This document shows, piece after piece, positions 3,343 to 38,060 of a stretch of 50,934 nt of DNA. The position numbers and the translations under genes are program-made. Position 1 is the stretch's first letter. Each line of letters begins with the position of its first letter. Under the pieces are notes generated by a model, which saw only the letters and a list, made by a program, of their open reading frames with translations, ran no database searches and had not been told where the DNA came from. Origin of the DNA: Companilactobacillus tucceti DSM 20183 (GTDB lineage: Bacteria; Bacillota; Bacilli; Lactobacillales; Lactobacillaceae); assembly GCF_001434665.1 (NCBI RefSeq), contig NZ_AZDG01000017.1, positions 1 to 50,934 of the forward strand. The letters run 5' to 3'.

Positions 3343-3462
3343 GAGAGTGTGCCAACACATGGTCAGCTTTCGAGTATTAAGGCAGACAAGCCCATCAATC
3401 CGATTTTGGATTGATGGGCTTGTCTGTTTTAAGCGGAAAAAGCTATGTGTTGGCACACGTTT
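3343..3462 (+). repeat. Structured intergenic element, copy A1
   Basis: A nested hairpin starting 8 nt after the aldo/keto reductase stop. Outer helix: 14 perfect pairs (3347-3360 with 3445-3458). Then a 5' GGTC bulge (3361-3364), helix AGCTTT/AAAGCT (3365-3370 with 3439-3444), a conserved internal loop (CGAGTA opposite GCGGAA), and an inner 19-bp perfect stem (3383-3401 with 3408-3426) with a 6-nt loop. It ends in CGTTT. It lies between convergent genes and may terminate either transcript. Confidence 0.8.
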
Positions 3463-3486
3463 ATGCTGCATGTTTTCTTTAAATTT

Positions 3487-3873
3487 TTAGCACTCTATGC
3501 CGTCTTCAGTACCGGCCTCACATGCTCTTGTATAATAATAGATTTTATGATCGACCATGTCTAAATATCCTTGAACTTCTTGTAATTGTTTCTCAACATC
3601 TTTTCGATGTTTATTGAAAAATGCTAGACGTTCGTTTAAAGTACAGTCTCCTTTTTGGCACAATTCTATAAATTGTTTTATTTCTTTTAAACTCATACCA
3701 GTATTTTTTAGACAATTGATAGTTTGAAGAAATTCAAAATCATGTTCTTTAAAATGTCGACGTCCACTAGGATCTCTATCGATAAAAGGTAGCAATCCTT
3801 TTTTATCATAGTATCTAAGTGTGTATGAACTCATACCAGTTATTTTAGCGACATCGCCAATTGTATAACCCAT
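3487..3873 (-). CDS. MerR-family regulator, AdhR/NmlR-like
   Basis: A 128-residue MerR-family transcription factor. The N-terminal winged helix-turn-helix (TIGDVAKITGMSSYTLRYYD) is followed by the RR wing motif and then a dimerisation helix with KDVEKQLQEV. Cys54, in the segment INCLKNTGM, aligns with the single conserved cysteine that senses aldehydes and electrophiles in Bacillus AdhR (family knowledge, numbering from memory). The start at 3873 is chosen over an upstream ATG at 3894 because GAAAGGA lies 7 nt upstream and the protein then begins MGYTIGD, as in the family. It is convergent with the aldo/keto reductase gene, whose promoter carries a matching dyad. Regulation of that gene is an inference. 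Confidence 0.88.
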   Translation of the reverse strand: MGYTIGDVAKITGMSSYTLRYYDKKGLLPFIDRDPSGRRHFKEHDFEFLQTINCLKNTGMSLKEIKQFIELCQKGDCTLNERLAFFNKHRKDVEKQLQEVQGYLDMVDHKIYYYTRACEAGTEDGIEC

Positions 3874-3918
3874 AATTTTTCCTTTCGAAAACATAATTAT
3901 TCTTATTATAATCTATGC

Positions 3919-4548
3919 CTACATAAAAAAACTAGTGATGACGACGATTGTGTTCATAATGAAATGACTCGCGGCACTAACGTAAATATTCTTTGATCTG
4001 TAATAAATAAATGCAAACCACAATCCCATTCCCATATAAATAATAAATCTTGTATCTTGATGCATAAATGCAAAGAAAGCCGCTGAAATGATTGCTGCCC
4101 AATAGATATTAGTAAGAGTTATTAAATTTGAAAAGAATAGTCTTCTAAAAACAATTTCTTCCATGATTGGTGCACAGACCAACACGTAAATAAAATAGTA
4201 AGGATAAGCTGATACTAGCGTTAACAATTGAGTAGTATTAGCTGATTCGACATTTTGATGTAGGATCAAGATTTCAATTAAGCTAATACCGAATTGAATA
4301 ACTAATGCTCCAATCGTACCGATAAGGATCCATTTAATTTTATTAGAGCTAGAAGTTTTTTCTTCGATATTATTTGGAGAACTTTTCTGTGTTAAATAAA
4401 TCATCGAAATAGTTGTAACGATTGCTGCAATTGTTAGGATGATGAAATAGCTGGAACCGGTTACTTTAAGCATTGTCAGGGCTGATCCTACAAATAATAA
4501 AAGTATGTAGATCAAGAGAGTTGAAAATTGATTTTTGAAATAAGTCAT
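3919..4548 (-). CDS. CPBP-family intramembrane metalloprotease
   Basis: A 209-residue polytopic membrane protein with several hydrophobic segments and the CPBP (CAAX protease/bacteriocin-processing, formerly Abi) motifs: EE..R at Glu130, Glu131 and Arg135, FAFMH with His163, and HFIMN with His195 and Asn199. These are the expected metal-binding and catalytic residues of the glutamic/metal intramembrane protease family. It is divergent from groES and shares the intergenic region. Members process peptides, confer bacteriocin self-immunity, or have unknown roles. No bacteriocin gene is visible nearby, so no specific function can be given. Confidence 0.85.
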   Translation of the reverse strand: MTYFKNQFSTLLIYILLLFVGSALTMLKVTGSSYFIILTIAAIVTTISMIYLTQKSSPNNIEEKTSSSNKIKWILIGTIGALVIQFGISLIEILILHQNVESANTTQLLTLVSAYPYYFIYVLVCAPIMEEIVFRRLFFSNLITLTNIYWAAIISAAFFAFMHQDTRFIIYMGMGLWFAFIYYRSKNIYVSAASHFIMNTIVVITSFFM

Positions 4549-4580
4549 AAGTTCTCCTTAATTTTTTTAAAGGTAAATAC

Positions 4581-4608
4581 TTGCATGTTCACAAGAAAAT
4601 GTTAATAT
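4581..4608 (+). promoter_or_regulatory. Promoter of groES-groEL
   Basis: TTGCAT (4581-4586) and TAATAT (4603-4608) with a 16-bp spacer form a reasonable sigma-A promoter directly upstream of the CIRCE operator. The ribosome-binding site GGAGGG is at 4666-4671. Confidence 0.6.
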
Positions 4609-4619
4609 TAAACATGTGA

Positions 4620-4646
4620 TTAGCACAAGACAAGTTCGAGTGCTAA
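4620..4646 (+). promoter_or_regulatory. CIRCE operator (HrcA binding site)
   Basis: The inverted repeat TTAGCACAA-N9-GAGTGCTAA matches the CIRCE consensus TTAGCACTC-N9-GAGTGCTAA at 16 of 18 arm positions. The right arm is perfect; the two innermost bases of the left arm differ. It sits between the promoter and the groES ribosome-binding site, where HrcA repression acts. hrcA is not in this window. Confidence 0.93.
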
Positions 4647-4678
4647 AGTTAAAAATTTAATCATCGGAGGGATTCAAA

Positions 4679-4963
4679 TTGTTAAAACCACTTGGAGACA
4701 GAGTTATTGTAACAGTCGATAAAGAAGAAGAGAAGACAGTTGGCGGCATTGTTTTAGCTAACAACGCTAAGGAAAAGCCACAAACAGCTGAAGTTGTGGC
4801 TGTAGGTGCAGGAGCCGTTACAGAAGATGGAAAGAAGTTACCAATGAATATTAAAGTTGGCGACAAGATTCTCTTTGATAAGTATGCTGGTTCAAACGTT
4901 AAATATGATGACAATGAATATTTAATCCTTCATGAAAAAGATGTCATGGCAATCGTTGAATAA
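4679..4963 (+). CDS. groES: Co-chaperonin GroES
   Basis: A 94-residue 10-kDa chaperonin that caps the GroEL ring and encloses substrate for ATP-driven folding in the cytoplasm. The N-terminus [11 protein letters not shown], the mobile-loop region (residues 17-33, with GGIVL), and the C-terminal [15 protein letters not shown] are diagnostic, and the length is standard. The start codon is TTG, supported by GGAGGG 7 nt upstream. First gene of the groESL operon, 43 nt before groEL. Heat-shock control through HrcA is indicated by the CIRCE element upstream. Confidence 0.98.
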
Positions 4964-5003
4964 TAAATATTATAAATAATTTTAAATGATAATTGGAGTG
5001 TGA

Positions 5004-6644
<1,641 letters not shown>

Positions 6645-6648
6645 AAAA

Positions 6649-6765
6649 GAGAGTGCAGGCAGGACGGTCAGACTTCGAGCATTGCCTAGGATAAGGCAGG
6701 TGACACGAAGTGTCGCATGACTTATTCGTAGCAAGCACAGAAGTTTGTCCTGCCGGAACTCGTTT
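6649..6765 (+). repeat. Structured intergenic element, copy B1
   Basis: Begins 4 nt after the groEL stop. Outer helix 6651-6665 with 6747-6761 (13 of 15 pairs), a 5' GGTC bulge (6666-6669), second helix AGACTTC/GAAGTTT (6670-6676 with 6740-6746), an internal loop with GAGCA opposite GCACA, TTGC/GCAA, a 3x3 loop CTA/GTA, then an inner stem ending in GACAC-GAA-GTGTC. It terminates in CTCGTTTT. Its 60-nt core (6677-6736) is identical to copy B2. Confidence 0.8.
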
Positions 6766-6769
6766 TGAT

Positions 6770-6886
6770 CAGAGAGTGTAACAAAGCGTTTAACTTTTGA
6801 GCATTGCCTAGGATAAGGCAGGTGACACGAAGTGTCGCATGACTTATTCGTAGCAAGCGCAGAAAGTTGCTTTGTGGAACTCGTTT
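6770..6886 (+). repeat. Structured intergenic element, copy B2
   Basis: Tandem with B1. The core 6799-6858 is base-for-base the same as 6677-6736, but the outer helix is different (6774-6787 with 6869-6882, built on ACAAAGC/GCTTTGT) and still pairs. The second helix is AACTTT/AAAGTT (6792-6797 with 6863-6868) with a GTTT bulge. It ends CTCGTTTT. The 374-nt gap between groEL and the next gene holds only these two copies and one terminator. Confidence 0.8.
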
Positions 6887-6944
6887 TAGATTAATAATTT
6901 ACAAAAAATAAGTTTCAAAAATAAACCATTAATTAGACAAATAA

Positions 6945-6982
6945 TAGTCATCCCTATACCAACACAGGGATGGCTATTTTTT
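6945..6982 (+). terminator. Intrinsic terminator downstream of groEL
   Basis: An 11-bp stem (6945-6955 with 6966-6976, one G-U pair) and a 10-nt loop, followed by six T. This is a conventional strong terminator, about 300 nt after groEL, so the two structured repeats would lie in the groESL 3' untranslated region if upstream termination is incomplete. Confidence 0.85.
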
Positions 6983-7018
6983 ATGCTAAAATGAAGAAAA
7001 ACACTTGAGGATATACTT

Positions 7019-7828
7019 ATGGATCAATTATTTACTATTGGACAACTATCAAAATTATATGATATCAAAATACCGACATTACGATATTACGATGAAGTTG
7101 GTATTTTAAAGCCCGCCAAAGTTGACCCAGAATCCCACTATCGCTATTATTCAACAGAAGAATTTGAACGTTTAAATGTCATTAAGTATTTGAGGGCACT
7201 AGATGTATCTATAAGTGATATTAAAAATTTCTTTGATGCACGTGATATTTCTACACTAGAGAACTTATTGGAAAAACAGCAAACGCAAGTTGAACAACAG
7301 ATGAAAACTTTACAAGCTGTTAATGGACGAATTACTTCTCGATTAAAGCAAGTACGAGATGCCAAAAATTCAGTATTAGGCAAAATAGAATACTTGAATT
7401 TGCCAAAGACACCAATTGTATATCTACAAAGTGATTACCATTTGGGAGAAGATATTGAAGTCCCCTTAACTGAATTAAGAAGAAAATATGGTTTAGACCA
7501 AGCAATATTTTTGGGTAAAATTGCATTGTCATTAAATAAACAAAATATTTTGAATAATAAATATGACCAATACAGTGGAATTTTGATGATTTTGGAATCA
7601 GGTGATGAGCGTGAAGCTACTTCATTTTTGGCTCAAGGTTCTTATTTGAGAATTAGATTTCATGGGACGCATGAAGATTCCGCTGATTCATATCGTCAAC
7701 TTGTTAAATATTGCCATGATCATTTGTTGACGATTATTGATGGTGCAATTGAAATAACCTTGATAGATTACGGTATTACCAATGATTTTGACAAATACGT
7801 TACTGAAATTAGACTTCCCGTTAGGTAA
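7019..7828 (+). CDS. MerR-family regulator with BmrR/GyrI-like effector domain
   Basis: A 269-residue transcription factor. The N-terminal MerR DNA-binding domain (residues 1-75: FTIGQLSKLYDIKIPTLRYYDEVG and HYRYYS) is followed by a coiled-coil dimerisation helix (about 80-115) and a C-terminal GyrI-like ligand-binding domain of about 150 residues ending in EIRLPV, as in BmrR and BltR. Such proteins bind lipophilic cations or drugs and twist over-long promoters into active form. It lies 80 nt upstream of two DUF554 genes, each with a 19-bp-spacer promoter carrying a dyad, so those genes are the likely regulon (inference). No such dyad is seen in front of the regulator itself. Confidence 0.9.
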   Translation: MDQLFTIGQLSKLYDIKIPTLRYYDEVGILKPAKVDPESHYRYYSTEEFERLNVIKYLRALDVSISDIKNFFDARDISTLENLLEKQQTQVEQQMKTLQAVNGRITSRLKQVRDAKNSVLGKIEYLNLPKTPIVYLQSDYHLGEDIEVPLTELRRKYGLDQAIFLGKIALSLNKQNILNNKYDQYSGILMILESGDEREATSFLAQGSYLRIRFHGTHEDSADSYRQLVKYCHDHLLTIIDGAIEITLIDYGITNDFDKYVTEIRLPVR

Positions 7829-7841
7829 AAGACAAACATTA

Positions 7842-7872
7842 TTGACTCTCTAGGTACTTGATAGTTTATATT
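7842..7872 (+). promoter_or_regulatory. MerR-type promoter of the first DUF554 gene
   Basis: TTGACT (7842-7847), a 19-bp spacer, then TATATT (7867-7872). Inside the spacer region an imperfect dyad ACTCTC-N9-GATAGT (5 of 6 symmetric) matches the layout of BmrR-type operators. The second DUF554 gene has a near-identical promoter at 8761-8791. Confidence 0.75.
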
Positions 7873-7908
7873 AATTATGTAATCGCTTACTCACAAGGGA
7901 GAAAAATA

Positions 7909-8586
7909 ATGATTGGGACACTATTTAATGTAGCAATGATTATTGGTGGAAGTATTTTAGGTAAATTTTTTCACAATGGAATAAAACTTGAATATCAAAG
8001 AATATTGACTCAGGGACTAGGATTGTCAGCTATGGCAATTGGAATCAATGCGGTAGTCGAATATATGCCCAAAAGTCACTATCCGGTATTATTTATTGTC
8101 AGTCTTTCAGTAGGTGGACTGATTGGCGAATGGATCAATTTACAAAAGAGATTTGATGATTTTGTCAATAAATTTTCTAAGAGTAATTTGGCAGAAGGTT
8201 TAGCCACAGCAATTTTACTATATTGCATTGGCTCGCTATCTATACTTGGGCCAATTCAAGAGGCCCTAGAACACGATTTAACTTTCCTATTGACCAATGG
8301 AATTTTGGATGGAATTACTTCAGTCGTACTGGCCTCAACTTTTGGCATAGGTATTGCCTTTTCGGCGGTAGCAGTATTTATTTGGCAAGGTAGTATATAC
8401 GGAATTGCGCTGCTACTTCAGAATTCAATTAATAATGATGTGATCACAGAACTTACAATTGTCGGAGGTATATTGATAATTGCTTCTGGAATAGGGTTAT
8501 TAGAGATTAAGAAAATCAATGTTGTTAATTTATTACCATCTTTGCTTGTTCCAATCGTAGTTATTTCAGTAATGCAGTTATTTTAA
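7909..8586 (+). CDS. DUF554 family membrane protein (first of two paralogues)
   Basis: A 225-residue polytopic membrane protein of the DUF554 (YdfK/YqgA-like) family. About six or seven hydrophobic segments are visible, with conserved MPKSHYPVLFIVSL, GNLAEGLATA-like and LYCIGSLSILGP stretches. No reaction is established for the family. The start at 7909 gives MIGTLFNVAMI and has AAGGGAG 7 nt upstream; an upstream in-frame start would run through the promoter and is unlikely. The neighbour at 8821 has the same length and roughly 70% identical residues by eye. Probable control by the MerR protein encoded just upstream suggests a role in coping with a toxic ligand, but transport has not been shown. 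Confidence 0.85.
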   Translation: MIGTLFNVAMIIGGSILGKFFHNGIKLEYQRILTQGLGLSAMAIGINAVVEYMPKSHYPVLFIVSLSVGGLIGEWINLQKRFDDFVNKFSKSNLAEGLATAILLYCIGSLSILGPIQEALEHDLTFLLTNGILDGITSVVLASTFGIGIAFSAVAVFIWQGSIYGIALLLQNSINNDVITELTIVGGILIIASGIGLLEIKKINVVNLLPSLLVPIVVISVMQLF

Positions 8587-8751
8587 GAGATTGGGACAAA
8601 ACTATTTTTCACTTAAACATGCGACATAAAATTGAAACAAAACATAGCTTTTCCGCTTAAACCAAATAATCCCAACAATCCAAAATCGGATTGTTGGGAC
8701 TATTTTCTTTAATGCTCGAAAGCTGGGCATGTTTTGTTCCGCTCTTTTTTT
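8587..8751 (+). repeat. Structured intergenic element, copy A2 (core inverted), with terminator
   Basis: On the plus strand, GGGACAAAAC (8593-8602) can pair with GTTTTGTTCC (8731-8740), followed by CTC and seven T: a terminator for the first DUF554 gene. Inside it is an A-type core in the opposite orientation. On the minus strand it reads outer arm, GCCC bulge, AGCTTTCGAGCATT, a long inner stem, then TTTAAGCGGAAAAGCT. An alternative 5' arm, GAAACAAAACAT (8634-8645), competes for the same 3' arm. An extra fragment GCGACATAAAAT near 8621-8632 recurs in copy A4. Confidence 0.7.
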
Positions 8752-8760
8752 ATTACTAGA

Positions 8761-8791
8761 TTGACCCTCTAGTAGCCTGAGAGTTTATATT
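8761..8791 (+). promoter_or_regulatory. MerR-type promoter of the second DUF554 gene
   Basis: TTGACC (8761-8766), a 19-bp spacer, TATATT (8786-8791). A dyad ACCCTC-N9-GAGAGT (5 of 6 symmetric) spans the spacer. The close match to the promoter at 7842-7872 indicates that promoter and gene were duplicated together and that one MerR regulator controls both. Confidence 0.75.
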
Positions 8792-8820
8792 AATAATATT
8801 TACTCGTGGGGGATGATATT

Positions 8821-9498
8821 ATGATTGGGACAATTTTTAATGTATCGATGATTTTAATTGGTAGTATTATAGGACGATTTTTGCATAAAGGAATGAAACC
8901 AGAATTTCAAAAAATATTAACACAAGGCCTGGGATTGGCGGCAATGGTAATAGGAATTAATGCGGTTGTTCAGCATATGCCAAAGAGTCACTACCCAGTA
9001 TTGTTTATTGTTAGCCTAGCCATTGGTGGTTTGTTGGGGCAATGGATCGATTTGCAATCTAGATTTGATAAATTAGTCGGTAAATTTTCAGGTGGAAATC
9101 TAGCAGAAGGGTTAGCTACAGTTATTTTATTATATTGCATTGGTTCTTTATCTATTCTGGGTCCAATTGAAGCTGCGTTGAAACATGATTACACATTTTT
9201 ATTCACTAATGGAATGCTGGATGGAATTACGTCGATTGTTTTGGCGTCAACTTTTGGATTAGGAATTGCATTTGCGGCTGTTGCTGTTTTGTTATGGCAA
9301 GGTAGTATTTATATGATTGCTTTATTTTTTCAAGGAGCATTAAACACCAATATGATCAATGAATTAACGATTGTTGGTGGAATTTTAATTTTGGCATCAG
9401 GATTAGGTCTATTGGAAATTAAAAAAATTAGTGTTTTAAATCTTTTGCCATCTTTAGCAGTTCCACTAATTTTAATTTTCTTATTAAGCTTGTTTTAA
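8821..9498 (+). CDS. DUF554 family membrane protein (second of two paralogues)
   Basis: A 225-residue membrane protein, paralogue of the gene at 7909-8586 with exactly equal length and conserved blocks MPKSHYPVLFIVSL, LYCIGSLSILGP and LTIVGGIL. The start at 8821 has GGGGGA 7 nt upstream and yields MIGTIFNVSMI, matching the paralogue. It has its own MerR-type promoter. An A-type repeat with terminator separates the two genes, so they are probably separate transcripts under common control. The two may form a hetero-oligomer or differ in ligand; neither can be decided from sequence. Function unknown. Confidence 0.85.
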   Translation: MIGTIFNVSMILIGSIIGRFLHKGMKPEFQKILTQGLGLAAMVIGINAVVQHMPKSHYPVLFIVSLAIGGLLGQWIDLQSRFDKLVGKFSGGNLAEGLATVILLYCIGSLSILGPIEAALKHDYTFLFTNGMLDGITSIVLASTFGLGIAFAAVAVLLWQGSIYMIALFFQGALNTNMINELTIVGGILILASGLGLLEIKKISVLNLLPSLAVPLILIFLLSLF

Positions 9499-9547
9499 TT
9501 TAGAAAGATTTCAAAACTGATATTTTCACTTATTTTATTAAAGTCCC

Positions 9548-9576
9548 TTGACAATGATTAAAAAGTATCTAATAAT
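9548..9576 (+). promoter_or_regulatory. Promoter of the PanE-like gene
   Basis: A perfect -35 TTGACA (9548-9553), 16-bp spacer, and -10 TAATAA (9570-9575). The ribosome-binding site TTGGAGG (9594-9600) lies 9 nt before the ATG at 9610. Confidence 0.7.
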
Positions 9577-9609
9577 GCATAACAACATATAATTTGGAGG
9601 CGACTATTT

Positions 9610-10584
9610 ATGAAATATGCAGTATTAGGTGCAGGTGCAATGGGATTGAGATACGGAGTTCTTTTACAAGAGGCTGGTTTTGAAGTTGATTTTGTGGATA
9701 TTTGGGATAAGCAAATTGAAACAATTAAACAACAAAATGGTGTGTTTGTATCTCGTGATGGTGAAAATAAGCATCTTGTACCAATTAACATTACGTCACC
9801 TGAAGATTATATGGGTTCTCCTGATGTTTGGATCGTCTTTGTAAAACAGATGCAATTGGCGGATGCTTTAAATAGAGCAGAACATCTATTTACCAAAGAA
9901 CAATATGTTGTTGCTCCAATGAATGGCATGGGACATATTGAAAAATTAGATAAGTATTTTGAAAAAGATAAGGTAATAAGTGGAACAGCAATGATTGCTA
10001 CTGTCTTGAATGGACCTGGTGATGTGGATTTCATGGGTCCATCGGGTGCAGGTAGTATGAAATTAGTTAATCAAAATGAAACTCCAGATGAAGTTACTAA
10101 ACAAATTGCTAATGATTTTACAAAGGCTAATTTGAATCCAGAAATCACTACTAATTTTCAAGGAACTCTAATGGCTAAGGTTATTTTGAATTCAGTCTGT
10201 AATACGCTTTGTACTATGTTTGGAATTAAGATGGGTGAATTTATTCAAGCACCAACAACTGAAGCTTTAAGTAAACAGCTTATTAATGAAGCCTTTGATG
10301 TTTGTGAACGTGCTGGAATTAAATTATTGAATACTAGACAACAAGAATGGGAAACGATTAAGTTTGCAGCAACTAAAAGTATGCCACTCCATTATCCATC
10401 CATGTATCAGGATATGTCCAAGCATCGACCTACTGAAGTCGACTATATTAATGGTTATATTTATGAATTGGGTAAGAAATACAATTATGAAGCTACAACA
10501 CATGATTACTTACGTAACTTAGTTCATTTAGCTGAATTTACAAACGACTTTGATCCTGAAACTTTGACTGCAGAAGTAGAGTAG
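9610..10584 (+). CDS. Ketopantoate reductase family protein (PanE/ApbA)
   Basis: A 324-residue NADPH-dependent 2-keto acid reductase family protein. The N-terminal Rossmann motif GAGAMG (residues 7-12) and the C-terminal helical domain with a conserved lysine in the GTLMAKVILNSVCN region are typical of PanE (2-dehydropantoate 2-reductase, pantothenate synthesis). In lactic acid bacteria some PanE homologues instead act as D-2-hydroxyacid dehydrogenases on branched-chain keto acids, and no pantothenate genes are nearby, so the substrate is open. It is monocistronic, with a strong TTGACA promoter and its own terminator. Length is normal to slightly long (usual 290-320). Confidence 0.85.
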   Translation: MKYAVLGAGAMGLRYGVLLQEAGFEVDFVDIWDKQIETIKQQNGVFVSRDGENKHLVPINITSPEDYMGSPDVWIVFVKQMQLADALNRAEHLFTKEQYVVAPMNGMGHIEKLDKYFEKDKVISGTAMIATVLNGPGDVDFMGPSGAGSMKLVNQNETPDEVTKQIANDFTKANLNPEITTNFQGTLMAKVILNSVCNTLCTMFGIKMGEFIQAPTTEALSKQLINEAFDVCERAGIKLLNTRQQEWETIKFAATKSMPLHYPSMYQDMSKHRPTEVDYINGYIYELGKKYNYEATTHDYLRNLVHLAEFTNDFDPETLTAEVE

Positions 10585-10590
10585 AAAAAA

Positions 10591-10630
10591 AGAGTATCAA
10601 CAGTATAAAATTTGTTGATACTCTCTTTTT
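10591..10630 (+). terminator. Intrinsic terminator after the PanE-like gene
   Basis: An 11-bp perfect stem (AGAGTATCAAC 10591-10601 with GTTGATACTCT 10614-10624) with a 12-nt loop, then C and five T. Confidence 0.85.
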
Positions 10631-10731
10631 CTGAATTTTTATTAGGATTGGCTTGTTAATTAATTATAAACAGGTGTTTAAAATGGGGGGGGTACGTGTT
10701 AGGATGAACTTATATTAGGGAGGAAATTATT

Positions 10732-11271
10732 ATGAAAAGAAGTCTATTAAGTAGTGTCACTATTTTGTTAGCTTTAAGCATGATGTCTACGACTGTTTTT
10801 GCATCGGATGTAACTAATGATGATTATGCGATAACAGACGAAGATGGAAACAGTGTTACCAACAACTTAGATTTAGATAATTTCGGTGTAACAGTAACTT
10901 CTAGTTCAGCCCAACTATACGATATTAATGGAAATAAAATTTCAGCTAGTTTAAATCAAGGAACATCTTGGAAAACAGATAATGAGCGTTACATAGGTGA
11001 TTCAGTCTATTATCGTGTGTCAACGAACGGGTATGTGAATAGTAGTGACGTTTATCTATATAAACCTATTAATGAAGTGATTAAAGCGATGGGGGATAAA
11101 CCTGTTGTTCTCTATAATAATCAAGGGCAATTGATCAAAAACTCCAACAGAGCGTTAGCGCCAGGATCAACTTGGAGAACAGATCGAGTTATTACAGTAG
11201 ATCATATAAGTTATTATCGTGTTTCAACTAATGAATTTGCGGTGTTATCTGATATTTCATATGTAAATTAG
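10732..11271 (+). CDS. Small secreted protein with two SLAP (surface-layer) repeats
   Basis: A 179-residue exported protein. The N-terminus has a Sec signal peptide (MKRSLLSS, a hydrophobic core, and cleavage likely after VFA near residue 24). The mature part carries two repeats of about 60 residues. Each runs from an xxLYxxNG segment through GT/STWKTD or WRTD to YYRVSTN and ends in a SDVYL/SDISY segment, the pattern of the Lactobacillus SLAP wall-binding domain (PF03217). There is no separate enzymatic domain, so it may be a cell-wall-associated structural or regulatory protein. GGGAGGA precedes the ATG. An eight-G tract lies about 40 nt upstream of the start. The A3 element begins at the stop codon. 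Confidence 0.85.
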   Translation: MKRSLLSSVTILLALSMMSTTVFASDVTNDDYAITDEDGNSVTNNLDLDNFGVTVTSSSAQLYDINGNKISASLNQGTSWKTDNERYIGDSVYYRVSTNGYVNSSDVYLYKPINEVIKAMGDKPVVLYNNQGQLIKNSNRALAPGSTWRTDRVITVDHISYYRVSTNEFAVLSDISYVN

Positions 11272-11383
11272 AGCGCAAGAAATCATGTTCAGCTTTCGAG
11301 CATTAAGGTAAACAAGTCTAGCAATCAAAGATTGCTAGACTTGTTTGCTTTAAGCAGAAAAAGCTATGATTTCTTGCGCGTTT
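11271..11383 (+). repeat. Structured intergenic element, copy A3
   Basis: Overlaps the G of the stop codon. Outer helix: 14 perfect pairs (11273-11286 with 11366-11379). A GTTC bulge (11287-11290), helix AGCTTT/AAAGCT, internal loop CGAGCA opposite GCAGAA, and an inner stem of 16 perfect pairs (11310-11325 with 11331-11346), extended outward through TTAAGG/CTTTAA. It ends in CGTTT. Confidence 0.8.
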
Positions 11384-11487
11384 GTTCTGAGTATATAACG
11401 TACTAATTTTTATCTAAGCACAGTCTCTTTTTAATTTTCAACAATATTGATACAATATCATAGGTAAAGATGGGGGAATTTTATATA

Positions 11488-12291
11488 ATGAAAATACTTT
11501 TCGTTGGGGATGTCGTTGGAAAAATCGGCCTTAAAACTGTGGAAACTTATTTGCCAGAAATCAAGCAAAAAGTTAAACCACAGTTAACTATCGTTAATGG
11601 TGAAAACGCTAATGGTGGTAAAGGAATCAAGGTCGAAGATTACCAAAGGATCCAAGTGGCCGGTGCAGATGTTGTATCTGGTGGAAATCATATTTGGGAT
11701 AAGCGTGAAGTTTTAGAATTTATCGACGATCCTAAGAAGAGTATCTTACGTCCATACAATTTTTCAGGCGCTGATGTGCCTGGTCGTGGTGTAATTGAAA
11801 AGAAGGTCAATCAAAAAAAGGTTTACATTATTAACATGCAAGGTACTGCTTTAATGCAACCCTTGGATAATCCTTTCTTAGCTTTTGATAAATTACTACC
11901 TACTTTAGATAAAGACGCTGTTAAGTTTGTTGATTTTCATGCTGAAACAACTAGTGAAAAGATAGCAACTGCAAAGTATTTAACAGGACGTGTTTCTGCG
12001 GTTGTTGGAACACATACGCACGTTCAAACAAATGATGCTCGTGTCTTTGATAAGAAGACGGCATATTTAACTGATGTTGGTATGACTGGCTCATATGATG
12101 GGATTTTAGGCGTTAAAGAAGAGCCTATTATTACTCGCTTTTTAACACAACGTCCAACTGAATTTGATGTTGACGAAGATGGCCGTATGCAAATAGGGTT
12201 TTGTGTTATTGATATTAATGATCAAACTAACTATGCTCGTAGTATTAAAAATTATGTAATTAATCCTGATAATCAAAAATTTTTAAATTAG
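11488..12291 (+). CDS. ymdB: YmdB family metallophosphoesterase
   Basis: A 267-residue dinuclear-metal phosphodiesterase of the YmdB/TIGR00282 family, which hydrolyses 2',3'-cyclic nucleotides and influences biofilm and motility gene expression in Bacillus. The N-terminus MKILFVGDVVGKIG, then NGENANGGKG, SGGNHIWDK and VGTHTHVQT supply the metal ligands (Asp, Asn, His). The start at 11488 (MKILF) fits the family, although the GGGGG motif is 11 nt away; an in-frame ATG at 11470 would add six residues. It heads the ymdB-mutS-mutL-ruvAB cluster, 12 nt before mutS. Confidence 0.93.
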   Translation: MKILFVGDVVGKIGLKTVETYLPEIKQKVKPQLTIVNGENANGGKGIKVEDYQRIQVAGADVVSGGNHIWDKREVLEFIDDPKKSILRPYNFSGADVPGRGVIEKKVNQKKVYIINMQGTALMQPLDNPFLAFDKLLPTLDKDAVKFVDFHAETTSEKIATAKYLTGRVSAVVGTHTHVQTNDARVFDKKTAYLTDVGMTGSYDGILGVKEEPIITRFLTQRPTEFDVDEDGRMQIGFCVIDINDQTNYARSIKNYVINPDNQKFLN

Positions 12292-18434: not shown

Positions 18435-19469
18435 ATGACACTAACAACTGAAGATTTTGATTATAATTTGCCAGAAGAACTAATTGCACAAACACCAATA
18501 AAGGATCGTGACCATTCACGTTTGCTAGTTTTAGATCACGAAACAGGAAAATATGAAGATAAACATTTTTATGACATCTTGGATTATCTAAATCCAGGGG
18601 ATGCACTTGTTATGAACAATTCACGTGTTTTACCTGCTAGACTTTATGGAACAAAAGAAGATACAGATGGTCATGAAGAAGTATTGTTGTTAAACAATAT
18701 CGAAGGTGACAAGTGGGAAGTATTAATGAAACCCGCACGTCGTGCCAAAGTTGGTACAAAAGTTCAATTTGGAGATGGACAACTAGAAGCCACTGTTTTA
18801 GAAGAATTAGAACATGGTGGGAAGATCATTGAATTTAATTATGAAGGTATTTTCTTAGAAATCTTGGAAAAATTAGGTGAAATGCCTTTGCCTCCATATA
18901 TCAAGGAAAAATTAGATGATCCTGATCGTTATCAAACAGTTTATGCTAAAGAAAACGGATCAGCAGCAGCACCTACAGCTGGATTACATTGGACAAAAGA
19001 TCTATTGGAAAAAGTTCAAGAAAAAGGTATTAAATTAGTTTATCTAACATTACACGTTGGACTAGGAACCTTTAGACCAGTGACTGAATCAGATATTAGT
19101 AAACATGTTATGCATTCAGAATTTTATCGATTAGATGAAGATTCAGCTAATACTTTGAATGAAGTCCGTAAAAATGGTGGCAAGATCGTAGCAACCGGTA
19201 CAACATCTATTCGCACATTGGAGACAATTGGTACTAAGTTTAATGGAGAAATCAAACCAGACAGTGGTTGGACAGATATCTTTATTAAGCCAGGATACGA
19301 GTGGAAAGTAGTAGATGAATTCATTACAAACTTCCATTTACCAAAATCAACATTAGTGATGCTAGTAGCAGCCTTTACAGGACGTGAAAATATCTTAAAT
19401 GCATATGAACATGCGATTGAAGAAAAGTATCGCTTCTTTAGTTTTGGGGATGCTATGTTTATCAAGTAG
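18435..19469 (+). CDS. queA: S-adenosylmethionine:tRNA ribosyltransferase-isomerase QueA
   Basis: A 344-residue enzyme that transfers and isomerises the ribosyl group of SAM onto 7-aminomethyl-7-deazaguanine at tRNA position 34, giving epoxyqueuosine. Typical landmarks are [15 protein letters not shown] near the N-terminus, [34 protein letters not shown], and [16 protein letters not shown] near the C-terminus. AAGGAGAA is 8 nt upstream of the ATG, and ruvB ends 13 nt before. It is followed by tgt, the preceding step of queuosine synthesis, after about 300 nt holding structured repeats. Confidence 0.97.
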
Positions 19470-19470
19470 A

Positions 19471-19583
19471 GAGCAAATCAAACCGGTCAGCTCCTGAGCA
19501 TTACCTAGGATATAAGATGCGTCGCAAAGCGACACATCTTATATCCGTAGTAAGCGCAGGGAGTTGGTTTGATTTGCTCGTTT
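19471..19583 (+). repeat. Structured intergenic element, copy B3
   Basis: Begins 2 nt after the queA stop. Outer helix: 14 perfect pairs (19471-19484 with 19566-19579). A GGTC bulge (19485-19488), second helix AGCTCC/GGAGTT (with one G-U), internal loop GAGCA opposite GCGCA, TTAC/GTAA (in place of the TTGC/GCAA of B1), the 3x3 loop CTA/GTA, a 12-bp perfect stem (19508-19519 with 19535-19546) and an apical GTCGC-AAA-GCGAC hairpin. It ends in CTCGTTT. Confidence 0.82.
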
Positions 19584-19700
19584 CAGCAATAAAGCAGAAT
19601 AATTATTTAAAAAGAGCAACAAGATAACTAATTGCATAATACGTAAGTAATCAAGGAGATGTCTTGATTTGCTCGTTTCAGCAATAAAGCAGAATAATTA
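19569..19700 (+). repeat. 37-bp perfect direct repeat (two copies) around a degenerate B-type element
   Basis: Bases 19569-19605 recur exactly at 19664-19700 (offset 95). The second copy is the 3' end of a shortened B-type element (about 19614-19678). GAGCAA...CAAGA can still pair imperfectly with TCTTG...TTGCTC, and traces of the core (TTGC, CGTA, AGTAA, GGAGA) remain, but the inner stem is gone. This reads as a tandem duplication of B3 with its 3' flank, followed by decay of one copy. The interval between queA and tgt (about 300 nt) holds nothing else recognisable except the tgt ribosome-binding site. Confidence 0.75.
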
Positions 19701-19746
19701 CTTTCAGTCAGATGACTTACTTGTTAGTTTCAGATTTAAAAAGTAA

Positions 19747-30564: not shown

Positions 30565-30606
30565 ATTTATGCAAAACTTGAGTGATACAGAATCAAAGGG
30601 GATATA

Positions 30607-31149: not shown

Positions 31150-31151
31150 AA

Positions 31152-31188
31152 AATAAGGCTGGGACAATTATATTGTTTCAGTCTTATT
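31152..31188 (+). terminator. Hairpin between cvpA-type gene and mutS2
   Basis: AATAAGGCTGGGACA (31152-31166) can form 15 pairs with TGTTTCAGTCTTATT (31174-31188), three of them G-U, around a 7-nt loop. Only a few T follow, so it may be a weak terminator or an RNA-stability structure upstream of mutS2. Confidence 0.5.
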
Positions 31189-31205
31189 TGTTAAGAGGAG
31201 ATTAA

Positions 31206-33560: not shown

Positions 33561-33638
33561 TTTTTTTGAAACAAAATGTTTCCTTGAATTACCTGAAAGT
33601 GATACCTTAATAACAGTGATTTAAAAAGGAGTGATTTC

Positions 33639-33950: not shown

Positions 33951-33960
33951 TATTAAAAAT

Positions 33961-34004
33961 AAAGAGCTTTCGCGTTTGTATAATTCAATGCGAAAGCTCT
34001 TTTT
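33961..34004 (+). terminator. Intrinsic terminator after trxA
   Basis: A 13-bp stem AAAGAGCTTTCGC / GCGAAAGCTCTTT with a loop of 16 nt and a run of T to 34004. It ends the cvpA-mutS2-trxA region. Confidence 0.9.
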
Positions 34005-34077
34005 ATATAGTTTATTAATAATAAATAGTCTTTCATAATATATTATGAAAACGCTATTGTGAATATTTTGGAATGCG

Positions 34078-34105
34078 TTGACTTTGATAGGATACGTATT
34101 AAATA
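34078..34105 (+). promoter_or_regulatory. Probable promoter of the unknown gene at 34143
   Basis: TTGACT (34078-34083), 16-bp spacer, TAAATA (34100-34105). Upstream, TGAAAACGCTATTG (34046-34059) matches 12 of 14 positions of the cre consensus TGWNANCGNTNWCA, failing only at the final CA; it is a weak candidate CcpA site. Confidence 0.45.
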
Positions 34106-34142
34106 ATGGTCCTGTAAGTATCTATAAAAGGGGTGTTAATAA

Positions 34143-34952
34143 ATGGACAAGATTGATGAAAACTTCTACTTGAATGTCGATAATGAAGCTTTAAAACAAA
34201 AAGTTATAAGTGATCTTTTTGAATGGCAAGCTAATATTCCTGCACAATTGGAACGTACACTTAAAAAACGCAATATTGAGGATAAAATTGTTTGGAAGGA
34301 CGCTGTTATTGGCCATACTAAAGACGAAAAATATTATGGTAAACGTAGTGTTCTAATGTTTTACTTTAATAATTACTATGTAATGAATGTATGGGCCGAT
34401 GTTAGTGATCCTATTAAGTTTTATATGAATGATTTTAGTGTGAAACCTAATATTGCTATTTTTGGTTATGGATTCTTGGAAGATAGAAACGTAACCTTTA
34501 CAGAAGATAACCCAGTTGAAATCGCATATAGCATTGATAAATTCTGTATCGGTGATGGTATTGGTGATCCAGCAGAAATATATGATGTTGTTTCTGATCT
34601 TATTAACAATCGTAAAGATGAAGTTAATAAAGAAGTGGAAAAAGCTATCAGCAAACGTGATGAAGATTATGGTACTTCAAAAATTGACAGTCGATTCCGT
34701 AATGTTAAAGATATTGTCAGCCAAGGGCCAATTCCTGAAGGCTTCAAATATCAAGCTCCTAAAATTTATCTTAATAGTGAAGGTATTACTGATTACAAGA
34801 AGGCATATAATGACTGTTTAGCTCAAGCATATGCTGATATGAATAGTGGAAAGTACGATGCATTGTTTAATGTCAGAGTTAATAGTCAACCTAATGATGG
34901 AAATAAGTATAATACATATTTGACTGGTGATGCAGTAAACATTTGTTATTAA
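34143..34952 (+). CDS. Protein of unknown function (269 aa)
   Basis: I do not recognise this 269-residue protein. It has no signal peptide or transmembrane segment. It is acidic overall, with an alternating beta-like central part rich in aromatic residues (KRSVLMFYFNNYYVMNVWADV). The C-terminal part (from about residue 208, KIYLNSEGITDYKKAYNDCLAQAYADM) ends with a single Cys-Tyr. AAAAGGGGTG precedes the ATG. It is monocistronic, between its own promoter and a bidirectional terminator. Codon use resembles the neighbours, giving no sign of recent transfer. Structure prediction would be the quickest way to place it. Confidence 0.8.
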   Translation: MDKIDENFYLNVDNEALKQKVISDLFEWQANIPAQLERTLKKRNIEDKIVWKDAVIGHTKDEKYYGKRSVLMFYFNNYYVMNVWADVSDPIKFYMNDFSVKPNIAIFGYGFLEDRNVTFTEDNPVEIAYSIDKFCIGDGIGDPAEIYDVVSDLINNRKDEVNKEVEKAISKRDEDYGTSKIDSRFRNVKDIVSQGPIPEGFKYQAPKIYLNSEGITDYKKAYNDCLAQAYADMNSGKYDALFNVRVNSQPNDGNKYNTYLTGDAVNICY

Positions 34953-34962
34953 TTACTAAAAT

Positions 34963-35002
34963 AAAAAAGACAGTGAAGCGTTTTTGCTTCATTGTCTTTT
35001 TT
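34963..35002. terminator. Bidirectional terminator between convergent genes
   Basis: An A-run, stem AGACAGTGAAGC / GCTTCATTGTCT (one G-U), a short T-rich loop, and a T-run. A/T symmetry means it can terminate both the 34143 gene (plus) and yslB (minus). Confidence 0.9.
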
Positions 35003-35012
35003 GATGTAAACT

Positions 35013-35501
35013 TTAGTTTCGATCGATTTTAATTGTAATCGAAACACTTTGAGCTTTACTGTTAGTTGTATAAGTTCCCAAACAATAAGCGTCTATCGTT
35101 TTTTCCACAGTCTCAGCAATTACTCCTGTCTCAAGTGAGAATTCAGGATCATCATTGTTCAAATTAAAACGTTGTTCGACTTCAGGTCCATTTAAAGTAT
35201 ATTGATAGCTGGTCTTTGTTTGTTTAGAGATTTTTAAGTTACCAAAACCAGCTTTAGTGAATAAATCAGGAAGACTTTGCATATCTAAAACTAAATTTCT
35301 ACTGAGATTTTTACCAGCCCAATAGAGCATTTCTACAGAATCTTTTTTCAATAGATCTGAAAGAACAAAGTCACGGAGAACTGAGACTGCAAAATAATCT
35401 TCGGTTAACTTTTCGTCGTCGCCATTTTCGTTTTCTTTGAGAACATCAGGGATGTCGTATTCAGTTAACTTTGTATCTGTTTTTTTTGATTTTGCGGCCA
35501 T
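35013..35501 (-). CDS. DUF2507 family protein, YslB-like
   Basis: A 162-residue cytoplasmic protein of the DUF2507/YslB family. The conserved block LRDFVLSDLLKKDSVEMLYWAGKNLSR (about residues 46-72) identifies it; the rest is a V4R-like fold by resemblance. Function is not established. In Bacillus yslB precedes racE, the glutamate racemase gene, in the same direction. Here it is divergent from murI, sharing a 139-nt intergenic region. AAAAGGAG precedes the ATG on the minus strand. The first 30 residues are low-complexity and charged. Confidence 0.88.
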   Translation of the reverse strand: MAAKSKKTDTKLTEYDIPDVLKENENGDDEKLTEDYFAVSVLRDFVLSDLLKKDSVEMLYWAGKNLSRNLVLDMQSLPDLFTKAGFGNLKISKQTKTSYQYTLNGPEVEQRFNLNNDDPEFSLETGVIAETVEKTIDAYCLGTYTTNSKAQSVSITIKIDRN

Positions 35502-35640
35502 TATTTTAACTCCTTTTTTTAGACAATTTATTATATCATTAGGATAGTCGCTTTTTAAGTGATTGTAACAGATAGACCAAATTATTTGAGTAAATATACA
35601 ATTAAATCATTAAAGTGAAAATAAATTATAGAGGTGTATT

Positions 35641-36441
35641 ATGAGCGACAACAGACCAATAGGATTATTAGATTCAGGTTTAGGTGGCTTAACTGTAACT
35701 AAAGAAGTTATTCGTCAATTACCAGATGAAGATATTGTTTTTATCGGAGACGAAGCGAGAATGCCTTATGGTATTAAGACTAAAGAAGAAATCATTAATT
35801 GTACAAGACAATTAGTTCAATACTTAATAAGTCAAAATGTTAAAGCCATAATTTACGCTTGCAATACGGCCACTGCTAACGCTTTACCTGCCCTAAGAAA
35901 AGAATTTTCGATTCCAATGATTGGTGTAATTGAGCCAGGAGCTATTTCTGCCACTCAAGTTACCAAAACTAAAAATGTTGGTGTTATTGGTACTGAAGCC
36001 ACAATTAAGGCTAAGAGCTACAGTACAGCGATTGAGAGCTTAGATAATGAAATCAACGTCTTAGGAATCGCTGCCCAAGATTTTGTTACTATCGTTGAAA
36101 AAGATGCTATTAATACAGATATGGCTAAAGATAATATTGCTAAAACGCTAAGTCCTTATAAAGATAGTGATTACGATACATTAGTTTTAGGATGTACACA
36201 TTTTCCAATGTTGAGAAATCAGATTCAAAAATTTTTACCAAATGTAAAATTGGTTGACTCAGGTATCGCCACTGTTACGATCACCAAAAAATTCTTAAAA
36301 GAAAATGGAATGCTCACAGATACTAAGGGATCTAAAATTGAATTACATGCAACAGGAAATATAGATGATTTTAAACGCCTTGCAAAACGCTGGTTAGAAG
36401 TGGATATTGATGAAATAAGTTTAGTAAATGTGGAGAAATAA
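35641..36441 (+). CDS. murI: Glutamate racemase
   Basis: A 266-residue cofactor-independent racemase that supplies D-glutamate for peptidoglycan. The two catalytic cysteines are Cys74 in YACNTATANAL and Cys185 in LGCTHFPML, and the N-terminal acid is in LLDSGLGGLTV (Asp11). Length is standard. GAGGTG precedes the ATG. It overlaps nothing and is 2 nt before rdgB, a pairing conserved in lactobacilli and bacilli. Confidence 0.98.
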   Translation: MSDNRPIGLLDSGLGGLTVTKEVIRQLPDEDIVFIGDEARMPYGIKTKEEIINCTRQLVQYLISQNVKAIIYACNTATANALPALRKEFSIPMIGVIEPGAISATQVTKTKNVGVIGTEATIKAKSYSTAIESLDNEINVLGIAAQDFVTIVEKDAINTDMAKDNIAKTLSPYKDSDYDTLVLGCTHFPMLRNQIQKFLPNVKLVDSGIATVTITKKFLKENGMLTDTKGSKIELHATGNIDDFKRLAKRWLEVDIDEISLVNVEK

Positions 36442-36443
36442 CA

Positions 36444-37043
36444 ATGAAAAAAATTATAATTGCTACGAGTAACCCTAATAAAGCTAAAGAATTTCGCAGA
36501 ATATTTGATGAAACAGAAATTGAATTAAAGACACTTTTGGATTTAACTGATGTACCTGAAATAAGAGAAACTGGTGAAAGTTTTAAAGAAAATGCTCAAA
36601 TCAAGGCTCATACAGTTATGGAGAAGTATAAACTGCCAACTATTGCTGATGACTCAGGACTTGAAGTAGATGCATTATTTGGACAACCGGGTATATATTC
36701 TGCAAGATATGCAGGTGATCATAATGATGCTGCTAACAATGCTAAATTATTGGCGGAATTAGGTGGAGTACCTGAAGAAAAGAGAACAGCCAGATTCGTG
36801 ACTACTTTAGTATTTGCTAATCCTAATAATGATGAAGATTTAGTCGTTGAGGGGGAAGTGAAAGGCCAGATTGCTAATTTTCCACAAGGGAATAATGGAT
36901 TTGGCTATGATCCACTATTTTATTTACCAGATTTGAAGAAAACAATGGCGGAATTGACACTTGATCAAAAAAATGAGATCAGTCATAGAGGACGTGCAAT
37001 TAGAAAATTAGAAAACGAATGGCCAAGCTGGATTAATTGGTAA
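36444..37043 (+). CDS. XTP/dITP diphosphatase (RdgB/HAM1 family)
   Basis: A 199-residue house-cleaning pyrophosphatase that hydrolyses dITP, XTP and ITP to keep deaminated purines out of DNA and RNA. N-terminal SNPNKAKEF, the acidic motif ADDSGLEVDAL, GQPGIYSARYAG, and NGFGYDPLF with SHRGRAI near the end are the family's substrate and metal motifs. It is co-transcribed with murI (2-nt gap). Length is standard. Confidence 0.97.
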   Translation: MKKIIIATSNPNKAKEFRRIFDETEIELKTLLDLTDVPEIRETGESFKENAQIKAHTVMEKYKLPTIADDSGLEVDALFGQPGIYSARYAGDHNDAANNAKLLAELGGVPEEKRTARFVTTLVFANPNNDEDLVVEGEVKGQIANFPQGNNGFGYDPLFYLPDLKKTMAELTLDQKNEISHRGRAIRKLENEWPSWINW

Positions 37044-37109
37044 TTGATTGCTGTAATACCGCGATAATGCTAATATTAAATTGCTATTAAAATTTAGGAG
37101 GAATTTGAT

Positions 37110-37520
37110 ATGACAGGTGGACAAATTGCAGGATTAATTGCAGCAGTTGCTTTCGTTGCTTTGGTTGTTTACTTGGCTATTACTTTGATTCAAACAGCTA
37201 AGCTACTTAAAGAATTACAATCTACAATGCAAGAAACAACTAAGATGGTTGAAGTACTTTCAAAGAATACTGATGAATTGATGCAACAAAGTAGTCAATT
37301 GGTTGATAAGACAAATACTTTGATGGATGATGTTAATTCTAAATCTGAAAAGCTAAATCCGCTTTTTGATACAGTTGAAAATTTAGGTCAAAAGGCCGCT
37401 AATGCCACAGCTGAAAAGCCAAATTCTGGATTTGGAATTCATAGTTTGATGAATCTTGCTAGTGCAGCTTCAATTGTTAAGTCAGTTGCCAAGTTTGTGC
37501 CAAGAAAGAAGAAAGACTAA
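37110..37520 (+). CDS. DUF948 family protein (YtxG-like)
   Basis: A 136-residue protein with one N-terminal transmembrane segment (about residues 6-28), then a coiled-coil-like stretch (about 30-95, LLKELQSTMQETTKMVEVL and following heptads), ending in a basic tail with RKKKD. It belongs to the DUF948 family; the Bacillus homologue YtxG belongs to the sigma-B general stress regulon. TAGGAGGAA precedes the ATG. It is 2 nt upstream of a YtxH-like gene, as in Bacillus, and just before the pepQ/ccpA locus, which recalls the Bacillus ytxGHJ-ccpA neighbourhood. Confidence 0.88.
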   Translation: MTGGQIAGLIAAVAFVALVVYLAITLIQTAKLLKELQSTMQETTKMVEVLSKNTDELMQQSSQLVDKTNTLMDDVNSKSEKLNPLFDTVENLGQKAANATAEKPNSGFGIHSLMNLASAASIVKSVAKFVPRKKKD

Positions 37521-37522
37521 TT

Positions 37523-37801
37523 ATGAAAAATAAATTTGCTTTGGGATTAGCGTTTGGTAGCATCGTTGGATATGCTACCTCTAAATATTTAACTAGTGAA
37601 TCAGGACAAAAGTTGTTGGAAAGTGTAAAAACTATTCGTGGTGACTTTAATAACGGTGGCGTTGGACTTGCTGATGCCAAGTTAGTGAATTCATTTAACG
37701 AGAAAACTGATGAACTAAAAAAACAAATGTTAGATACAGCCGATCAAATCGATGATAAAGAATCGAATATCGTTTTTGATGAGGATGATATTAAGAAATA
37801 G
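37523..37801 (+). CDS. YtxH-like small protein
   Basis: A 92-residue protein whose first 20 residues form a Gly/Ala-rich hydrophobic segment (KFALGLAFGSIVGYATSKYL) typical of YtxH family proteins, followed by a helical amphipathic part and an acidic C-terminus. The mechanism is unknown; the family is stress-associated. It lies 2 nt after the DUF948 gene and clearly shares its transcript. The C element begins at the stop codon. Confidence 0.83.
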   Translation: MKNKFALGLAFGSIVGYATSKYLTSESGQKLLESVKTIRGDFNNGGVGLADAKLVNSFNEKTDELKKQMLDTADQIDDKESNIVFDEDDIKK

Positions 37802-37919
37802 AGAGTGTGAAAAAAGGCGGTTTGCCACAGGAATATAGCCTAGAGCCACGAATGATTGGAACTATCAATCGTTTGTGGTTCGTAGCTATATGGAGGTTGT
37901 AGCCTTTTTTTACACGTTT
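37801..37919 (+). repeat. Structured intergenic element, copy C
   Basis: Starts at the ytxH-like stop codon. Outer helix: 14 pairs, one G-U (37805-37818 with 37902-37915), then CGTTT. Inside, ATATAGC/GCTATAT (37833-37839 with 37885-37891) brackets the same CTA/GTA 3x3 internal loop as the B copies, followed by a long inner stem with G-U pairs. It lacks the GAGCA/GCGCA loop, so it is a hybrid or older member. Confidence 0.72.
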
Positions 37920-37935
37920 AGGGTATAAGAAATAA

Positions 37936-38060
37936 AGAGCGTGACGACACATGTTCAGCTTTCGAGCATTAAGTAAATAAACAGGCAATCCAAATTTTGG
38001 ATTGCCTATTTATTTGGCTTAAGCGACATAAAATAGTTGTGTCACAGCCCTTTTATTTTT
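37936..38060 (+). repeat. Structured intergenic element, copy A4
   Basis: Contains the A-type 5' part (GTTCAGCTTTCGAGCATTAAG) and an inner stem of 17 positions with one mismatch (37975-37991 with 37999-38015). The 3' part reads CTTAAGCGACATAAAATAG instead of the usual GGAAAAAGCTATG, so the second helix is lost. The outer helix is reduced to GTGAC/GTCAC. A T-rich tract follows (38051-38060). Partly decayed, or rearranged with the fragment also seen in A2. Elements C and A4 fill the 283-nt convergent gap before pepQ. Confidence 0.65.

Follow-up and report, generated by a model that had tools for sequence, protein, structure and literature searches.

The 50,934-nt stretch of Companilactobacillus tucceti DSM 20183 analysed here (contig NZ_AZDG01000017.1, hereafter the window) carries eight copies of a nested-hairpin repeat, each 113-118 nt long and one of them antisense, as located with the covariance model R1. 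We interpret the family, with a probability of roughly 0.55, as a non-autonomous, protein-less structured repeat whose sense-strand fold probably acts at the stop codon, in the 3' end of the mRNA, in the manner of REP and ERIC sequences. The ~117-nt repeat is taken to be a functional RNA because its helices covary, it docks at stop codons, its pairing is strand-asymmetric, it is mobile, pairing is retained at the queA site and the arms of individual copies are matched.

Architecture and copies of the repeat

Folding of the reported places gave a fixed order of structural elements. The outer helix is followed, on the 5' side, by a bulge of 4 nt; next come a second helix of 6 bp and an internal loop, then two GC pairs with a bulged A, and finally the long inner stem. 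The exception is a decayed copy at 37.9 kb, which gave no nested hairpin. The internal loop has GA opposite GGA or GCA (GA/GNA) and is constant in the copies. Both the nested architecture and the constant loop letters had been proposed in a preliminary description made from the sequence of the window, and both are seen in the folds; the constant loops may, as that description suggested, be recognition sites. A kink-turn, considered as a reading of the GA loop, did not fit. Three subtypes were distinguished: A has a simple inner stem, B has an additional CTA/GTA internal loop and a third is found at position 37803. Aligned copies span 112-123 nt, mostly with GAG and GTTT at their ends, and in the cross-genus alignment described below (A4) the letters that never change include a 5'-terminal AG-N-G, the A-U pair that opens helix 2, GAG.A, and C..A on the facing strand. 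The copies and the parts of one of them lie in the window as follows.

3345-3462, plus strand: complete A-type copy (R1, 117 bits), beginning 10 nt past the stop codon of the open reading frame (ORF) at 2375-3334
6649-6765, plus strand: B-type copy, unit 1 of a tandem pair 3' of groEL (ORF 5007-6644), 4 nt past the groEL stop codon (R1, 91.4 bits)
6772-6886, plus strand: B-type copy, unit 2 of the groEL pair (R1, 97.8 bits); on comparison of cores and arms, the core is 98% identical to that of unit 1 and the outer arms differ
8628-8744, minus strand: A-type copy, antisense, with a degenerate 3' end, flanked by two plus-strand genes (R1, 87.3 bits)
11271-11383, plus strand: A-type copy (R1, 115.3 bits) whose first base is the final base of the TAG stop codon of ORF 10732-11271 (distance -1)
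11273-11286, plus strand: outer helix of the 11271 copy, 5' strand (3' strand at 11366-11379), from sequence and fold
11287-11290, plus strand: bulge of 4 nt on the 5' side in the 11271 copy, from sequence and fold
11291-11302, plus strand: in the 11271 copy, helix 2 (5' strand) together with the letters of the internal loop, the GC pairs and the bulged A, from sequence and fold
19469-19583, plus strand: B-type copy 3' of queA (R1, 106.2 bits); relatives, when compared, have copies at the same site
19652-19703, plus strand: second, incomplete version of the 3' strand and tail belonging to the queA copy (19469), about 95 nt downstream (90% repeat of 19557-19608)
37803-37919, plus strand: copy of the third subtype, unit 1 of a tandem pair, 1 nt past a stop codon (R1, 56.9 bits; R2, a second covariance model, 69.9 bits)
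37937-38054, plus strand: decayed A-type copy, unit 2 of the 37803 pair (R1, 53.8 bits)

The preliminary description had reported a dispersed family of seven or more copies. All of those copies exist, the one near 8.7 kb lying on the minus strand with a degenerate 3' end and the one at 37.9 kb being decayed, and the family extends to about 100 copies in the genome. Its further statement that copies start at or near a stop codon and end in CGTTT applies to most of the window: five of the eight begin no more than 10 nt from a stop codon on their own strand, and six of the eight end in CGTTT. The copies at 6772 and 37937, each the second unit of a tandem pair, make no contact with a stop codon.

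Searching the genome with R1 gave 130 matches, including opposite-strand shadows of the same hairpins. One hundred separate places were kept, 99 from this search and one from the search of the window; two were not read, leaving 98 for the counts below. A pattern built on the core of the window copies matched the genome 46 times, a few of the matches being coding or overlapping, as against three matches for the reversed control.

Covariation and strand asymmetry

Covariation was judged by shuffling and by sliding the pairing partner. The own-genome alignment (A2) holds 28 copies, 27 from fetched loci and one from the window, chosen by sequence pattern and a loose folding-energy cut; a coding match that had passed the cut (L017) was left out, and 16 of the 46 pattern matches had no locus. 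Standard pairs occupy 95.1% of the paired positions in A2 compared with 75.6% after shuffling, a level that none of 500 shuffles equalled or exceeded, and two-sided changes occur in 37 of the 47 pairs. When the partner was slid by one to three columns, pairing fell to 37-43%. The second alignment (A4; 34 copies) draws on 20 genomes of eight other genera and on Companilactobacillus, and gave 94.1% pairing against 64.2% when shuffled, with two-sided changes in 37 of 42 pairs; its rows were picked by R1, so that these counts lean towards structure. A further alignment (A3), which includes antisense shadow rows, was left aside. The covarying helices noted in the preliminary description are thus borne out by the shuffle and slide tests, in A2 for the genome itself and in A4 for the Lactobacillaceae.

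G.U cells outnumber A.C cells in the three counts made (68:24, 79:17 and 124:35; the inner-stem count used 76 copies). The cells are not independent of one another; without the two richest columns the ratios are 44:17 and 58:17, and column by column G.U is ahead in 17 against 8 of 47 in A2 and in 19 against 2 of 42 in A4. Since duplex DNA or symmetric copying alone would predict equality, the excess indicates that one strand carries the fold. This is probably the strand that would be present in the mRNA, although single-stranded DNA of that strand could also account for it.

Position relative to stop codons

When ORFs of at least 100 codons were considered, the start of 70 of the 98 copies lay no more than 15 nt from a stop codon on the same strand, compared with 5 of 98 in a mirror control made at the other end of the element. 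This supports the stop-codon starts first noted in the window. With an 80-codon cut, a same-strand stop codon lies within 150 nt in 81 of 98 copies; 12 were other cases and five had none. The same position is seen elsewhere, with 13 of 20 copies in other genera and 12 of 30 in other families within 20 nt of a sense stop codon (mirror control, 0 of 50).

Few copies resemble canonical terminators. A T-run directly follows the 3' end in six of the 98 copies, and a separate canonical terminator was found within 160 nt in 10 of 98, compared with 0.9 expected from shuffles; the groEL pair, for example, has its own terminator downstream, ending near 6974. The end of an antisense gene lies within 200 nt of 58 of 98 copies with the 80-codon cut, or 48 of 98 with the 100-codon cut.

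Mobility of the family and candidate movers

Comparison of the mutL-ruvA-ruvB-queA-tgt block in 29 records, 26 of them from Companilactobacillus, revealed filled and empty sites. The mutL-ruvA junction is short and empty in most relatives; it holds a copy in C. nuruki, and copies or a collapsed remnant in C. crustorum and C. mindensis. At ruvB-queA there is a copy in C. insicii and an internally deleted copy in C. nodensis. Direct repeats of 16 nt (C. nuruki) and 15 nt (C. insicii) surround the copies, and the target at these two sites is A/G-rich and AGAGAG-like. Tandem arrays are present in C. hulinensis (four units 3' of groEL and three 3' of queA) and C. mishanensis (three units 3' of groEL), and at one locus of genome G008 (L253) a complete copy is nested within another. 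From the empty and filled sites, the tandem arrays and the nested insertion, it follows that the family is mobile.

Miniature inverted-repeat transposable elements (MITEs) derived from insertion sequences (IS) have conserved terminal inverted repeats that match an autonomous IS. Here the end pairs are conserved but the adjoining arms vary and change together; an autonomous partner was sought as Y1_Tnp (PF01797) and RVT_1 (PF00078) only. PF01797 is present in 18 of 36 genomes of the genus. Plasmid carriage gave no match in blastn with single copies as queries, a sequence search made without covariance models. Four pattern matches on viral contigs emerged from two scans, two from each, and one of the matches (L207) resembles coding sequence; R1 found no element on L207 or L208 at E 1e-9, the matches on L209 and L210 being outside this check. 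Target-site duplication found no support as a general hallmark, given a null result in 82 own copies and a weak excess in two further sets (see below). Insertion into pre-existing hairpins, the mechanism reported for the enterococcal EFAR repeats, seems an unlikely source of the outer helix, as the empty mutL-ruvA and queA-tgt sites have no evident hairpin by eye.

Retention of pairing and exchange of outer arms

The closest named relatives of C. tucceti by MutL and RuvB are C. baiquanensis, C. kedongensis and C. keshanensis. At the queA site, a copy is present in 8 of 30 rows and a remnant in 2 of 30, and in a quick MutL-RuvB tree the carriers all stand apart from a group of 15 species of the genus that has no copy. 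The helices at this site differ in sequence between species and are mostly still paired; the C. kedongensis copy has two mismatches in the outer helix.

The outer arms appear to be exchangeable units. The groEL copies at 6649 and 6772, with 98% of the core in common, share 25-36% of the outer arms, and in both C. kedongensis and C. hulinensis units that stand side by side have a similar look of shared cores and different arms. This is not the rule in the genome: among 78 parsed copies, core and arm identity correlate at 0.64, and of the 16 pairs with core identity of at least 95% only one has arm identity below 0.5. C. zhongbaensis and C. furfuricola are sister species whose queA copies differ at 2 of 68 core positions and have different outer 7-bp arms, with flanks sharing 55 of 60 letters upstream and 49 of 60 downstream. 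When 36 genomes were scanned for this core, 29 loci turned up in two of them (23 in G008 and six in G017), all with one near-identical core combined with about five discrete 7-bp arm pairs. A script scored a perfect 7-bp arm match in 24 of these 29 copies; L265 and L274 are chimeras with unmatched arms, and the row for L248 is a parsing artefact of the script. This pattern would be expected if the core moved or was gene-converted among copies whose arms are inherited separately. That mismatched arms are rare argues for selection on arm pairing.

Distribution and database status

The family is not confined to C. tucceti, as the preliminary description had proposed to check in related genomes; copies were found in the genus, the family and the order. 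Searches of the genome sets considered a limited number of candidates per genome under strict filters, and their copy numbers are lower bounds. R1 matched at least 34 of the 35 other genomes of the genus (60 genomes searched) and at least 132 of 301 genomes of the family, in at least 20 of 40 genera. The model R2, which was built from A4, matched at least 92 of 395 genomes of the order; these come from six family codes and from at least 30 of the 80 genera. In a sample of 398 genomes from the phylum it matched the own genome only (1 of 398), and with the strict filters misses are possible. Thirty matches from 11 genomes of other families have the same plan over 116-120 nt, the 3' end and the loop letters differing in some families, and adjacent matches about 122-128 nt apart indicate tandem arrays in these families, in the 11 genomes already positive with R2.

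No Rfam family matches the element in the loci searched. At the gathering threshold there was no match in the window, nor in any of 20 loci from other Lactobacillaceae. Of the 30 loci from other families 20 were searched, and the only family found in them was Ref70, away from the element copy. Below threshold, 13 matches with E values up to 10 were obtained in 3200-11500, all far under gathering. Ref70, an Enterococcus small RNA (sRNA), lies at L221:2766-2887, some 1.1 kb from a copy of the element; as L221 (genome G566, family code f3) carries it, f3 is probably enterococcal. A literature search, in which subscription journals were little covered, found no description of this family in the Lactobacillaceae, and no earlier description was found of its constant loop letters, stop-codon docking, exchangeable arms and spread over several families.

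Relation to known repeat families

The preliminary description did not recognise the family. This holds for Rfam; in its features, the repeat does resemble ERIC, REP and EFAR, and it is best read as a family of that kind, compared here with EFAR, Efa-1 and ERIC by their descriptions. Its enterococcal members may belong to EFAR or Efa-1. EFAR (Enterococcus faecalis repeats), which Venditti and co-workers reportedly presented in 2007, are said to be palindromic miniature insertion sequences, mostly of ~170 bp and ranging from 42 to 650 bp. Their termini are said to have variable stems, the targets being stem-loops that leave part of their stems at the termini. The two families would share palindromic structure, taxonomic order and variable terminal stems, and the present architecture also occurs in G566. 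They may differ in that the reported targets of EFAR are stem-loops, whereas the empty sites here do not look like stem-loops by eye.

ERIC sequences are mobile. They are ~127 bp in length and form a single long stem-loop, and their RNA hairpins alter the expression of neighbouring genes in Yersinia (PMC2267715). The likeness in size and in the single long stem-loop is by description, and the hosts differ, those of ERIC being enterobacteria; the accounts of ERIC available in PMC2267715 mention neither stop-codon docking nor modular arms, both traits of the present repeat. Efa-1 of E. faecalis is an intergenic structured repeat with a model size of 163 and 65 (18) copies, described as two adjacent stem-loops (Petrillo et al. 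2008; PMC2267715), unlike the one nested hairpin seen here; again the comparison is by description. The same source reports a single family from L. johnsonii, the genic Lac-1, and found no clusters in either L. monocytogenes or L. innocua. REP sequences and their composites (REP/BIME) are likewise extragenic hairpins, many of them 3' of genes, which shield upstream mRNA in E. coli and lower translation when placed less than 16 nt from the stop codon (PMC12306157, in the latter case citing Liang et al. 2015). REPs are reported as 20-40 bp in length (PMC3733652), and as palindromes they are tagged at one end with GTAG or CGTC. The present element differs from them in its size of ~117 nt and in its ends, and differs from REP/BIME with TnpA-REP in that the own genome has no Y1 HUH transposase.

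Interpretation and alternatives

In the reading that we favour, transcripts would carry the element at the very start of their 3' end, with the fold as the functional object. A hairpin just past the stop codon would most likely change ribosome release and/or mRNA decay, by analogy with the RNA hairpins of REP and ERIC; the constant GA/GNA loop and the bulge of 4 nt may be recognised by a putative protein, and the mover would be supplied in trans. Several observations weigh against this reading. The G.U excess would also be expected from selection on one DNA strand; some pair columns, moreover, lean towards A.C (8 of 47 in A2 and 2 of 42 in A4). Among copies from other families, 18 of 30 are not within 20 nt of a sense stop codon, a few copies are antisense, and others lie inside operons (mutL-ruvA), where the fold is tolerated between translated genes. 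As to mobility, flanking direct repeats in 82 own copies are at the level of the null from mismatched pairs, and repeats of at least 7 nt in two further sets are in weak excess (6 compared with 1.9 expected in 28 copies, and 2 compared with 0.3 in 21). No Y1 transposase was found in the own genome or in the copy-rich genome G002, and no RVT_1 reverse transcriptase in the own genome, the sole genome searched for it.

The family might instead be purely selfish DNA, its hairpin being a single-stranded or cruciform substrate of a transposase or recombinase with no role in mRNA. We regard this as rather unlikely, though a serious contender, and think the same of its account of the stop codons, namely that insertions are tolerated there or that an AGAGAG target lies there. 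It is in keeping with sites that are filled in some genomes and empty in others, with the tandem arrays and the nested copy, and with the ERIC-like size; so is the G.U excess, because G.T beats A.C in single-stranded DNA too. Judged against the mirror control, however, sense orientation and docking within 15 nt seem tighter than tolerance requires; moreover, the own genome lacks both a Y1 transposase and a PF00078 reverse transcriptase, no plasmid was matched by single copies in blastn, two of the four viral pattern matches gave no element at E 1e-9, and the queA-site copies of diverged relatives are still well paired. It is doubtful to a similar degree that the repeat is a mobile RNA element docking at stop codons in several families of the order, with a constant, protein-read core and exchangeable address arms. 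Within that bolder proposal, the idea that cores move or convert between copies, each copy keeping its own matched outer helix and tandem copies folding separately, is put forward tentatively, as is the idea of a new regulatory 3'-UTR (untranslated region) system of the Lactobacillales mobilised by an undescribed route.

Two further explanations are much less probable. Intrinsic terminators with decorated stems are very unlikely: the position at gene 3' ends, the antisense gene ends within 200 nt (58 or 48 of 98, depending on the cut) and the tails of some A-type copies, in which a second 3' strand is followed by T's, would suit them, but T-runs follow only six of the 98 copies, separate terminators occur 10 times against 0.9 expected, as at groEL, and copies lie within operons. 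The canonical terminator was accordingly rejected as the leading explanation, and the view in the preliminary description that the element is more than an ordinary terminator stands. Similarly improbable is a mutational origin of the covariation, through template switching in quasi-palindromes and gene conversion that copy one arm onto the other. Such copying would explain why close relatives (L115 and L116) differ by whole helix segments with core and flanks nearly the same, and why tandem units share cores and differ in arms. It would, however, erase the asymmetric bulges and loops, which are retained; nor does it fit the excess of G.U over A.C or the rarity of chimeric arms (2 of 29).

A structured repeat of about 100 copies, present in several families of the Lactobacillales, absent from Rfam and placed at the stop codons of many genes would affect the expression of a sizeable gene set, should its fold influence the release of ribosomes or the decay of mRNA, and its copies can mislead annotation and RNA-seq. 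The matched arms around a shared core also provide a natural experiment that sets selection on RNA structure against mutational copying in palindromes, a long-standing problem of covariation analysis, in a mobile, RNA-shaped repeat that is now open to study.

Additional observations

Several A-type copies in the genome have 3'-half duplicates downstream that are comparable to the one behind the queA copy. Some A-type copies (C1:9276, C45:83986 and C49:81704) have a common tail that ends in a second strand complementary to the shared 5' arm, with T's after it. Where copies have diverged, as in C45:83986, the first 3' strand alone is still complementary to the 5' arm. A two-state fold is possible for this tail. 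The copies of G008 and G017 (L248-L276) mostly have a longer common tail, with a small hairpin of its own after CTCGTTT. Some copies have collapsed, losing most of the core while the outer arms or the ends remain; they were seen at mutL-ruvA (L111), at queA-tgt (L122) and in the own genome (C1:44037). A different insertion of 417-595 nt, seemingly GC-rich, occupies ruvB-queA in L103, L104, L107 and L110 and ruvA-ruvB in L114, and is perhaps another repeat family. In the window, the antisense copy at 8628-8744 lies between paralogous neighbour genes at 7906-8205 and 8818-9117, which are 75% identical over 300 nt.

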